Below are positions 6,789 through 44,252 of a DNA stretch of 64,000 nt, in pieces. Both the position numbers and the translations under genes were made by a program. How positions within the stretch are numbered: position 1 is the first letter of the stretch; every line of letters begins with the position of its first letter. Source of the DNA: Candidatus Scalindua arabica (GTDB taxonomy: Bacteria; Planctomycetota; Brocadiia; Brocadiales; Scalinduaceae); assembly GCA_018263435.1 (NCBI GenBank), contig JAANXD010000026.1, positions 1 to 64,000 of the forward strand, written 5' to 3'. The notes beneath the pieces are model-generated. The model searched no databases and had not been told where the DNA came from. It worked only from the letters and a program-made list of their open reading frames with translations.

Positions 6789-7451
6789 ATGGAAAACCAA
6801 ACTAAGGACTATTCAGAAAACCCTCAGGAAATAATAGATGAAAGTTTCGATATTATCGACAATCTTGTCGATTTCGACAAAATACCGGAATCTTCCAGGC
6901 CTATAGCAAGAAGGGTCATTCACGCAACAGGCGATACTGACTTTGCAGACAATCTCATAATTAATCCTCAGGCAGTAGAAGCTGCAGTTAATGCTATTTC
7001 TAATGGTAAATCTATAGTTACAGATGTAAATATGGTCAAGGCGGGAATTAGCGCAAAAGCAATAAATCGATTCGGAGGAAAGATAATCTGCAGGATTGCA
7101 GAAGAAGCTGTTGCCAAAAAGGCAAAAGAGACGAATAAAACACGTGCTATTACGTCCATGCAGGAGTCCCTGGCCGATATATCAGGAGGTATTGTCGCGA
7201 TAGGAAATGCCCCAACGGCAGTCTTTTCGATCATTGATCTTATCAGGAGAGAGGGGGTAGTACCTGCTCTTGTAATAGCGGTTCCGGTCGGCTTTGTAAA
7301 GGCTGCTGAATCGAAAGAGGCTTTAATGACATTCCTTGACAACAAGAAAGACATTCAGATTCCTTATATAGTCAACATCGGTAGAAAGGGCGGAAGTGCA
7401 GTTGCAGTCGCAATTGTAAATGCTTTAATAAATATTACTAAGGAAATGTAG
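6789..7451 (+). CDS. cbiC: Cobalt-precorrin-8 methylmutase CbiC/CobH
   Basis: Moves the C-11 methyl to C-12, giving cobyrinic acid. The catalytic His lies in SSRPIARRVIHATGD, and IINPQAVEAA, VTDVNMVKAGI and GNAPTAVF match the family. I place the start at the ATG at 6789 (220 residues); an upstream in-frame ATG at 6753 adds twelve residues unlike the family. The stop codon TAG (7449-7451) lies inside the GTAG tetranucleotide that opens a REP element, so the C terminus abuts a repeat. It sits between cbiX and cbiD. Confidence 0.92.
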   Translation: MENQTKDYSENPQEIIDESFDIIDNLVDFDKIPESSRPIARRVIHATGDTDFADNLIINPQAVEAAVNAISNGKSIVTDVNMVKAGISAKAINRFGGKIICRIAEEAVAKKAKETNKTRAITSMQESLADISGGIVAIGNAPTAVFSIIDLIRREGVVPALVIAVPVGFVKAAESKEALMTFLDNKKDIQIPYIVNIGRKGGSAVAVAIVNALINITKEM

Positions 7452-7542
7452 CGGAAACCTTTAGGTTTCCTTTGTATACGTTATAATGGAAGGCTGAAGT
7501 CGTACCATAGGTAGATCTGCCTCTGGCATGACCTTCCGCTAC
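7448..7542 (+). repeat. Inverted pair of GTAG-type REP sequences
   Basis: It opens with GTAGCGG and hairpin GGAAACCT-TT-AGGTTTCC (7453-7470), and closes with an inverted member ending CCTTCCGCTAC (CTAC at 7539-7542, which is GTAG on the other strand). The same family recurs at 43182-44214 around a RAYT transposase gene. It fills the whole cbiC-cbiD spacer and supplies the cbiC stop codon. A GTAG head followed by a hairpin is the known signature of RAYT-mobilised REPs. Confidence 0.75.
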
Positions 7543-39947: not shown

Positions 39948-40334
39948 ATGAAGAAAGCTAGCTTAAAAAGCTTCGAAGATTTAGAATGCTGGAAAGCTTG
40001 TACTGAAGTGAGAAGATTTACAACAACATTGGTAAAGACCTTTCCAAAGGAAGAAATATTTGCCTTAGTTGATGATATGAAACGAGCTGCACGTTCATGT
40101 ACTCACAATATTTCAGAAGGCTTTGGGCGTTTTCATTTTCAGGAAAACATTCAATTCTGCAGACAAAGTCGGGGTTCTCTTTACGAACTAATCGACCAAT
40201 TAATTACATCTAAAGACGATGGTTATATTGATTCTAAACAATATGATGAAGGAAGAGCCCTGATATCTAAAGCTCTTGCTCTATTGAATGGATACATAAA
40301 CTACCTGGTCCGCCAGAAAACTAATAACAAATAA
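39948..40334 (+). CDS. Four-helix-bundle protein, 23S rRNA-IVS family (copy 1)
   Basis: 128 residues: FEDLECWKACTEVRRFTTTL, MKRAARSCTHNISEGFGRF and YINYLVRQKTNNK are the blocks of the small four-helix-bundle family first seen as ORFs within intervening sequences of 23S rRNA genes. Function unestablished. Inserted between the MutL-like gene and its 383-residue partner and flanked by an 11-bp inverted repeat, so it looks like a small transposed unit rather than part of the surrounding operon. Confidence 0.85.
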   Translation: MKKASLKSFEDLECWKACTEVRRFTTTLVKTFPKEEIFALVDDMKRAARSCTHNISEGFGRFHFQENIQFCRQSRGSLYELIDQLITSKDDGYIDSKQYDEGRALISKALALLNGYINYLVRQKTNNK

Positions 40335-41512: not shown

Positions 41513-41540
41513 TACGGGTTACATGTTGTGGGTTGCGAGT
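41513..41540 (+). repeat. Left inverted flank of the second four-helix-bundle gene
   Basis: 28 nt whose inverse complement matches 41925-41952 at 22 of 28 positions by hand alignment (GGGTTACATGTTGTGGG-type against CCTGTAACTTGTAACGCG-type sequence). It ends 15 bp before the start codon of the four-helix-bundle gene. Confidence 0.55.
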
Positions 41541-41555
41541 ATACATGGAGGTAAA

Positions 41556-41921
41556 ATGAAAAGTTATCGAGATTTGGAAATCTACAATTTGTCATATTAT
41601 CTAGCTATTAAAATACACAAAATGTCTTTAAAACTTCCAAAGTACGAATTATATGAGGAAGGAAACCAGATAAGAAGATCATCAAAAGGAATTACTTCCT
41701 GTATCGTAGAGGGTTATGGCCGAAGGAAATATAAAGCAGATTTTGCTAAGTTCATTATTTATGCGCATGCTTCTTGTGATGAAACAATTCTGCACTTGAA
41801 TTTCATAAAAGATACACATGCGTTTGTTGAAAAAGAAATTCAAGTATTATTTGATGCTTACAACAAATTGGGTAGTAAAATAAACAAATTCATTCAATAC
41901 GTAGAGAAAGAATGGAAATAA
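41556..41921 (+). CDS. Four-helix-bundle protein, 23S rRNA-IVS family (copy 2)
   Basis: 121 residues from ATG 41556 behind GGAGGTAAA. YRDLEIYNLSYYLAIKIHKMS, RRSSKGITSCIVEGYGRRKY and FIYAHASCDETILHLNF are the family blocks. It differs strongly from copy 1 at 39948, so the two are independent insertions and not a tandem duplication. It is flanked by 28-nt inverted repeats and again lies between genes of the MutL/DUF6754 system. Confidence 0.85.
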   Translation: MKSYRDLEIYNLSYYLAIKIHKMSLKLPKYELYEEGNQIRRSSKGITSCIVEGYGRRKYKADFAKFIIYAHASCDETILHLNFIKDTHAFVEKEIQVLFDAYNKLGSKINKFIQYVEKEWK

Positions 41922-43172: not shown

Positions 43173-43181
43173 AATAATCAT

Positions 43182-43245
43182 GTAGCGGAATGGCTTCAGC
43201 CTTCCATTATTCTGGACAAGGTGGAAACCTGAAGGTTTCCGCTAC
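43182..43245 (+). repeat. Paired REP (BIME), copy 1
   Basis: 64 nt: GTAGCGG head, hairpin GGAATGGCTTCAGCCTTCC (43187-43205), linker, hairpin GGAAACCT-GA-AGGTTTCC (43223-43240) and closing CTAC. It is identical at every position to 44151-44214 and sits upstream of the RAYT gene. Each half begins with GTAG read outward-in, the RAYT recognition tetranucleotide. Confidence 0.9.
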
Positions 43246-43262
43246 AGACATTCATAGCAAAT

Positions 43263-43286
43263 GTAGCGGAACGCCTTTAGGCTTCC
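43263..43286 (+). repeat. Single GTAG-type REP upstream of RAYT
   Basis: GTAGCGG followed by hairpin GGAA-C-GCC-TTTA-GGC-TTCC. Same family as the flanking BIMEs, unpaired, 22 bp before the RAYT start codon. Confidence 0.8.
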
Positions 43287-43307
43287 ACATACAAAACTAA
43301 ATCTAAT

Positions 43308-43766
43308 ATGAAAATACAAAGAAAACGCAATAGATTACAACACTTCGATTACGAAGGAAGCTATGCGTACTTTTTAACAATATGCTGCTATGACAATGGA
43401 AATTATTTCACAAATAAAAATACAGTGTCTACAATTCTTGATTCGTTAAACCGTATATCTTCTGAAATGGATTTTTCCATTTTAGCATACTGTTTTATGC
43501 CTGACCATTTACACATTCTTACGTCAGGTGATGAAAAAGTAAATCTGATTAAATTTATAAAAACATTTAAGCAAATAACAGGATATAATTTCAAGAAAGC
43601 TTCTGGAAGAAGGTTATGGCAAAAGAGCTTTCATGATCATGTAGTACGTAAAGAAGAAAATCTGAATTCAATAGCGGAATATATATTTAATAATCCGGTT
43701 AGAAAGGGTCTTGTTAAGAATTACGAAGACTATCCGTCTTTAGGCCCTAAATGGCGAGTTTCATGA
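43308..43766 (+). CDS. REP-associated tyrosine transposase (RAYT, Y1-HUH)
   Basis: 152 residues of the IS200/TnpA-REP superfamily. The HUH motif is H67-L-H69 in CFMPDHLHILTSG and the catalytic tyrosine is Tyr125 in LNSIAEYIFNNPVRKGL; RLWQKSFHDHVVRKEEN is the conserved block between. It should nick and move REP sequences bearing GTAG. Its last codons (WRVS and stop) come from a 279-bp MITE inserted at 43752; removing the MITE and one CCTAAA copy gives an ending PKD-stop at 44037-44042. Catalytic residues are untouched, so activity is probably retained. Confidence 0.9.
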   Translation: MKIQRKRNRLQHFDYEGSYAYFLTICCYDNGNYFTNKNTVSTILDSLNRISSEMDFSILAYCFMPDHLHILTSGDEKVNLIKFIKTFKQITGYNFKKASGRRLWQKSFHDHVVRKEENLNSIAEYIFNNPVRKGLVKNYEDYPSLGPKWRVS

Positions 43767-44030
43767 CATCGTTTACACTTTTTGTTTCATGAGACCGTAT
43801 ACACTTTCTTTCCCATTTTCTCCCACTTAAGGGTGAGGAGAAAATGGGAAAGAAAGTGTGTACAACAACTAACGGTCATAAACTCTTGTTAATAACTACT
43901 TATAAAAATGTCACCGATCATTTAACCATAGGCTTTTGGAGAAGGTAGAAACAATTTTGCTAAAGTGTAAACGATCTCATGACACAGCTAGTAGTACTAA
44001 AAAGTGTAAACGATGTCATGAAACTTGGCA
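43752..44030 (+). mobile_element. 279-bp MITE with 32-bp inverted ends and 6-bp target duplication
   Basis: The first 32 nt (43752-43783) and last 32 nt (43999-44030) are inverted repeats with two mismatches; 26 inner positions are perfect. The ends are TG and CA. CCTAAA directly flanks both sides (43746-43751 and 44031-44036). A second, weaker inverted pair lies inside (around 43785-43807 and 43958-43983), giving repeated end motifs as in IS21/IS481-type elements. No transposase ORF. A 23-bp perfect hairpin (43801-43859) fills part of the interior. Inserted at the very end of the RAYT gene. Confidence 0.88.
43801..43859 (+). repeat. 23-bp perfect hairpin inside the MITE
   Basis: 43801-43823 is exactly inverted at 43837-43859 with a 13-nt loop; the arm reads ACACTTTCTTTCCCATTTTC then TCC. 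Strong enough to form an RNA hairpin if transcribed. Confidence 0.85.
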
Positions 44031-44043
44031 CCTAAAGATTAGT

Positions 44044-44067
44044 GGAAGGCTAAAGCCATTCCGCTAC
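44044..44067 (-). repeat. Single GTAG-type REP downstream of RAYT
   Basis: On the minus strand: GTAG (44067-44064), then CGG and the hairpin GGAATGGCT-TT-AGCCTTCC. It begins two bases after the inferred original RAYT stop (TAG 44040-44042), so the transposase gene and its REP are adjoining. Confidence 0.8.
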
Positions 44068-44083
44068 GAGCTAATGAATATTT

Positions 44084-44109
44084 GTAGGAGATCTGAAAAC
44101 CACCGCTAC
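44084..44109 (+). repeat. Degenerate REP pair
   Basis: GTAG at 44084-44087 and the inverse CTAC at 44106-44109 enclose GAGATCTGAAAACCACCG, a degraded member of the GTAG-type REP family found around the RAYT gene. Confidence 0.4.
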
Positions 44110-44150
44110 GAAATGTATAATTGTTAACAATGAAATTACTGTGGATATTT

Positions 44151-44214
44151 GTAGCGGAATGGCTTCAGCCTTCCATTATTCTGGACAAGGTGGAAACCTG
44201 AAGGTTTCCGCTAC
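44151..44214 (+). repeat. Paired REP (BIME), copy 2
   Basis: 64 nt identical at every position to 43182-43245. With it, this copy brackets the RAYT gene and the MITE. It ends 38 bp before the next membrane gene. Confidence 0.9.
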
Positions 44215-44252
44215 ATTTATATATTAATTAGAACGAAAGGAATAGAAGCAGG

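Follow-up and report, generated by a model that had tools for sequence, protein, structure and literature searches.

A single-copy RAYT gene and its inner REP pair occupy different gene gaps in related Scalinduaceae genomes

The window, i.e. the whole stretch of 64,000 nucleotides that was analysed, comes from an anammox-type bacterium and contains a small transposase gene set among GTAG-headed hairpin repeats (REPs), some of which are arranged as inverted pairs (BIMEs). A preceding sequence-only reading had assigned the DNA to a planctomycete-like genome, in agreement with its origin from the Scalinduaceae (Planctomycetota), to which Ca. Scalindua sediminis also belongs; over the 1.2 kb compared, its locus L072 is identical to L150 of genome G013 ('same family'). 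All genomes used here are draft MAGs (G002 is 82% complete). G000 denotes the window genome and G011 its sister and closest relative; gap A lies between upA and a MutL-like gene and gap B between DUF6754 and ORF44253. The following features were assigned:

43182-43245, plus strand: outer left BIME, 64 nt, with REP a forward, a spacer of the 15-nt type and REP b inverted; identical to 44151-44214
43263-43287, plus strand: inner REP of type c (GTAGCGGAACGCCTTTAGGCTTCC), bounding the REP-RAYT-REP unit on the left; the same sequence bounds the G002 unit on that side
43308-43766, plus strand: RAYT gene, Y1 HUH transposase of 152 aa (Pfam Y1_Tnp, NCBIfam NF047646, PDB 4er8, dN/dS)
43752-44030, strand unspecified: 279-bp MITE with inverted terminal repeats (TGGCGAGTTTCATGACATCGTTTACAC) and a 6-bp target duplication CCTAAA (43746-43751 and 44031-44036)
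44042-44067, minus strand: inner REP of type a, bounding the unit on the right and overlapping the region of the ancestral stop codon
44084-44109, minus strand: degenerate REP without a stable hairpin
44151-44214, plus strand: outer right BIME, identical to 43182-43245; its right junction, CTAC/ATTTA, is the REP junction of gap B in G014 and G013
7448-7542, strand unspecified: related REP pair at a distance from the RAYT locus, one of the dispersed REPs

The two 64-nt BIMEs with inverted GTAG hairpins, 0.97 kb apart, the two single REPs between them and the related REPs at 7448-7542, a real pair, had all been described in the sequence-only reading and were recovered here. The identity of the BIMEs even covers 66 nt (43181-43246 and 44150-44215), at a start-to-start distance of 969 bp with an intact RAYT gene in between. 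The degenerate REP and the 279-bp MITE had been missed.

With the NCBIfam model NF047646 (REP_Tyr_transpos) the transposase reaches 110 bits at a cut-off of 80, which bears out the earlier naming of this HUH/Tyr transposase as a RAYT and of the locus as a REPtron. Pfam Y1_Tnp matches the protein as well, and its PDB match is E. coli TnpA_REP (4ER8, E 9e-9). The motifs HLH (67-69), WQ and YIFNNP (at 125) are intact and, judged by a dN/dS of 0.13-0.16 against two relatives, the gene is under purifying selection. It lies between two inverted GTAG-headed REPs; among 98 distinct homologues a forward GTAG hairpin was found upstream of 63 and an inverted one downstream of 52, where about 1 would be expected. 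With IS200/IS605 elements the RAYT shares a related Y1 catalytic domain, the position of the gene between hairpins and, presumably, movement as a unit. It differs from them in its inverted hairpin ends, in its score with the IS200/IS605 model NF033573 (34.2 bits, below the cut-off of 55) and in its copy number, which is one in the genome (next best match 39% identity) instead of several near-identical copies. Relatives with a close RAYT also have a single copy per genome at this similarity level. Placed by published motifs alone (PMC6006769), the protein would be nearest to TnpA_Y1 subclass 2.5 (Bertels group 3) of Pseudomonas and Stenotrophomonas, with which it has in common a length of ~151 aa, the DHLH and WQ motifs, short REPs and a 1-nt gap between GTAG and stem. 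However, YIFNNP fits subclass 2.4 (YIxNNP) and not YI[VI]ANP, and the REP copies of the window genome number tens, not hundreds. Up to ~17 more Y1 transposase genes or fragments occur in G000 (e.g. at L012, L014 and L015); several of these further genes are bordered by GGGACA-type inverted repeats without REPs, like the TIRtrons of PMC3733652.

Each 64-mer is composed of a forward REP a (GTAGCGGAATGGCTTCAGCCTTCC) and an inverted REP b (GTAGCGGAAACCTTCAGGTTTCC), and its single-stranded DNA folds with -15.1 kcal/mol (z -4.7). It resembles REPINs (PMC3116915), in which an inverted REP pair likewise folds as one long hairpin. In contrast to the many dispersed near-identical copies of a REPIN or mobile BIME, a genome-wide count, as proposed in the sequence-only reading, revealed two exact copies of the 64-mer, both at the RAYT locus (next best match 85% identity); only related REPs are dispersed, and the dispersed relatives of 71 nt lie largely within a MITE (see below). 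A TTTA/TTCA loop of the REPs, seen across phyla, was considered as a new signature and rejected, as counting the T-A closing pair as part of the stem brings it into line with the published TY-type loop (PMC3733652).

The 9-mer GTAGCGGAA is found 8 times in the window versus 0.11 expected, and the pattern GTAGCGGAA-N-TTCC 41 times genome-wide, where the reversed control gave one match. By eye, two of the genomic matches formed no hairpin, leaving ~39 real hairpins. REP centres lie mostly outside coding regions: ORFs of at least 100 aa cover 72% of the fetched loci but contain 4 of the 44 centres. The sister G011, which lacks a close RAYT, contains 3 REPs versus 41, 36 and 15 in the three genomes that have one, but 24 were counted in G004 and 70 in G014, again without a close RAYT. 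The count proposed in the sequence-only reading is therefore ambiguous, and the link between RAYT and REPs is suggestive, not clean.

The commonest genomic BIME is ~71 nt long. Equating it with the 64-mer was considered and rejected, because the two differ in their spacers and many copies of the 71-nt BIME are found inside a MITE of ~145 nt, whose terminal repeats (CAATGTCATTGAATTAAG) measure 18 bp. The ~145-nt copies at L221:1448-1595, L031 ~1436-1580, L033, L054, L222 and L238 carry an inverted REP pair in full; flanks of this type are absent at the 64-mers of the window. It is an evenly balanced question whether most REP and BIME copies owe their spread not to the RAYT studied here but to other RAYTs or to a DDE-type MITE with a captured BIME. 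In favour of such a spread, copies of the 71-nt BIME with up to 100% identity occur in other species and in G014, a member of a second genus, also where this RAYT is lacking, and the wider ~145-nt MITE is 92-97% identical in the best pairs at non-orthologous sites with unmatched flanks. Furthermore, the core of its terminal repeat lies near 9 of 29 REP clusters (17 of 53 REPs) versus 6 of 2000 control windows, and G014 has its 70 REPs but no RAYT close to that of the window. On the other hand, 20 of the 29 clusters show no terminal repeat by the same core criterion, and the counts of 41 and 36 in two RAYT genomes, against 3 in the RAYT-less sister G011, speak against it. In any case part of the BIME family rides in a MITE that took up a BIME and brings it from one species to another, and this MITE is also present in genomes lacking this RAYT, so that REP number is no measure of RAYT activity and can mislead when used as its readout.

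Other elements in the genus carry the CAATGTCATTGAATTAAG terminal repeat without a BIME. Another inverted REP pair, formed by type a and a GGAGGTTT-type REP and 104-117 nt long, occurs at L043, L047 and L048; its homology runs past the REPs, so it may belong to a larger repeat. Some type-a REPs (L030:1430, L033:1451, L054) contain a G+C-rich palindromic insert (CCCGCCTGTACC...GGCGGGTAG) in the hairpin loop. Nothing in the window reached the Rfam gathering score.

Synteny of a seven-gene block extends over 12 genomes, and the RAYT occurs in different gaps of this block: gap B in G000 and G001, gap A, ~5 kb away, in G002, and neither gap in G011. Ten genomes, G011 included, have a gap B without RAYT, and gap A is a short REP-free stretch in G000, G011, G009 and most others (unreadable in G001). 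The G002 unit measures 521 bp, and its two ends coincide exactly with the GTAG of REP c and with the CTAC of the inverted REP a. No outer BIMEs accompany it, and no homology to the window was found beyond the inner REP ends. The right inner REP sequence of the window recurs at the right end of the G002 unit and immediately after the G001 RAYT. By these comparisons the unit common to the species is the inner REP-RAYT-REP and not BIME-RAYT-BIME, and the different gaps indicate that this inner piece changed position within the genus. The earlier suggestion that BIME-RAYT-BIME could move as one unit is left unsupported, because the relocated unit of G002 carries just the two inner REPs. RAYTs are reported to tend to stay at one chromosomal position among related species, which is no part of their definition; here the position is not kept. 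Because two lineages have the RAYT in gap B, a move from B to A would be the likelier direction.

Besides the unit, gap A of G002 carries ~15 nt extra. In G013 a homologous RAYT splits a phoB-/phoR-like gene pair, and the two genes overlap or are separated by no more than 45 nt in each of 12 other genomes in which both were found; the insertion edges reach up to 74 nt past its REPs; REP-exact ends consequently rest on one case. Across the order, pairs of RAYTs at ~73-80% identity have mostly unrelated flanks. Among the genomes compared the RAYT is 86-88% identical versus 88-90% for core proteins, which makes it as old as the clade and disfavours a recent horizontal acquisition.

The unit of the window is 805 bp long instead of 521 bp as in G002, because the 279-bp MITE entered between RAYT and right REP. 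This MITE is absent from the G001 and G002 units; its insertion point is located three bases ahead of the stop codon seen in G002, it changed the C-terminus of the RAYT from D to WRVS and it split the gene from the right REP. Further copies reside at C41, C81 and C12, the one at C81 with its own 6-bp duplication CATAGT. The family (window 43752-44030; L062 ~1760-1980; L061 1-125; L063 ~1586) is characterized by several terminal repeats (GTGTAAACGATGTCATGAAAC) and by target duplications of 6 bp, and would resemble IS21-type ends. A parent IS was searched for both the 279-bp and the ~145-nt MITE and none was identified.

Some RAYT-less versions of gap B contain REPs at the position of the outer 64-mers. 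In G014 a single double-foot REP matches the outermost left 64-mer junction by its left offset of 12 nt, and its right flank, CTAC/ATTTA...AAAGAAAGGAA, corresponds to the outermost right one. The REP in gap B of G013 has its right junction in common with the right 64-mer, and G002 exhibits a decayed REP at the corresponding offset (equally good in 1 of 500 shuffles); a RAYT remnant was sought in gap B of G002 and none was found. The REP site therefore predates the RAYT there, and the outer 64-mers look like a resident BIME at an older REP site, now on both sides, rather than the ends of the unit. Their doubling may go back to a circle that integrated at the resident BIME, to amplification of this BIME or to copying combined with gene conversion. 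Since the outer REPs of G001 differ from the 64-mers, the identical pair is either recent or held identical by conversion.

Taken together, the locus is a REPtron, and we consider it probable that its RAYT moved the REP-RAYT-REP piece between gaps and that the outer 64-mers stem from a resident, older BIME. Cognate GTAG hairpins are placed immediately before the single-copy RAYT gene and at its original stop codon; the RAYT would most likely cut the inner REP pair, as single-stranded DNA, at its GTAG foot. At least one move of the piece between gaps of one gene cluster would have taken place in this genus, and a BIME at the pre-existing REP site would have come to flank the unit on both sides. 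Against this reading weigh the REPs in genomes without this RAYT and the left REP of type c, which is not amplified (one copy genome-wide). Whereas the term REPtron stands, the earlier wording "active or recently active" is plausible only, given the purifying selection on the RAYT and the identical 64-mers. Only tentatively, and leaning slightly against it, do we go further and regard REP-RAYT-REP as an autonomous mobile element, with a Scalinduaceae RAYT that transposes its own gene and did so at least once over ~5 kb.

Alternatively, the RAYT could be sessile and domesticated as published for other REPtrons. Recombination of dispersed REPs with each other, homologous or illegitimate, or an ancient duplication with differential loss would then account for its positions, and the RAYT would not have acted on its own gene. 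The single copy per genome at this similarity level, the divergence like that of core genes, the published lack of mobility (PMC8266576, PMC2817692) and the dispersed REPs, which could recombine, all fit this explanation. We nevertheless judge it unlikely: the empty gap A of the relatives has no REP, so that REP-REP recombination would have had no partner there, and the moved piece terminates at the inner REPs. Two or more separate horizontal acquisitions, one unit entering gap A (G002) and others gap B (G000, G001), would suit the patchy presence of the RAYT in the genus and the mostly unrelated loci of the more distant RAYT pairs, but appear improbable, as RAYT divergence follows core divergence and independent arrivals at the same seven genes would require either coincidence or a hot spot.

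The E. coli REPtron (yafM/TnpA_REP, PDB 4ER8) likewise has its RAYT between inverted GTAG REPs, with BIME-2 on both sides (PMC2817692), and the catalytic domains are related. The E. coli protein, however, belongs to group 2, its REPs are long and bulged, and its gene is not known to move. In the literature RAYTs count as the first bacterial transposases to have been domesticated, and 'no evidence of tnpAREP mobility' is reported (PMC8266576); RAYTs at new sites have in some cases been ascribed to duplication or horizontal acquisition (PMC3686654). Among the papers searched, none mentioned both anammox and RAYT. This type of locus is already known; its value lies in the relocation case, a candidate counterexample to RAYT immobility from draft MAGs, which suggests that a gene class thought immobile can move. 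If the element is autonomous, not all REPtrons are domesticated and sessile as now stated. The filled and empty sites, with homology ending at the inner REPs, provide a natural test case for the movement of RAYT genes and for its ends.

Two small genes of the four-helix-bundle type (23S rRNA IVP type, TIGR02436) are situated in the same syntenic block, at 39948-40334 and 41523-41921 of the window. The latter is missing in G002, G011, G003, G010 and G012 and occupies the same gap in G009 and G008.
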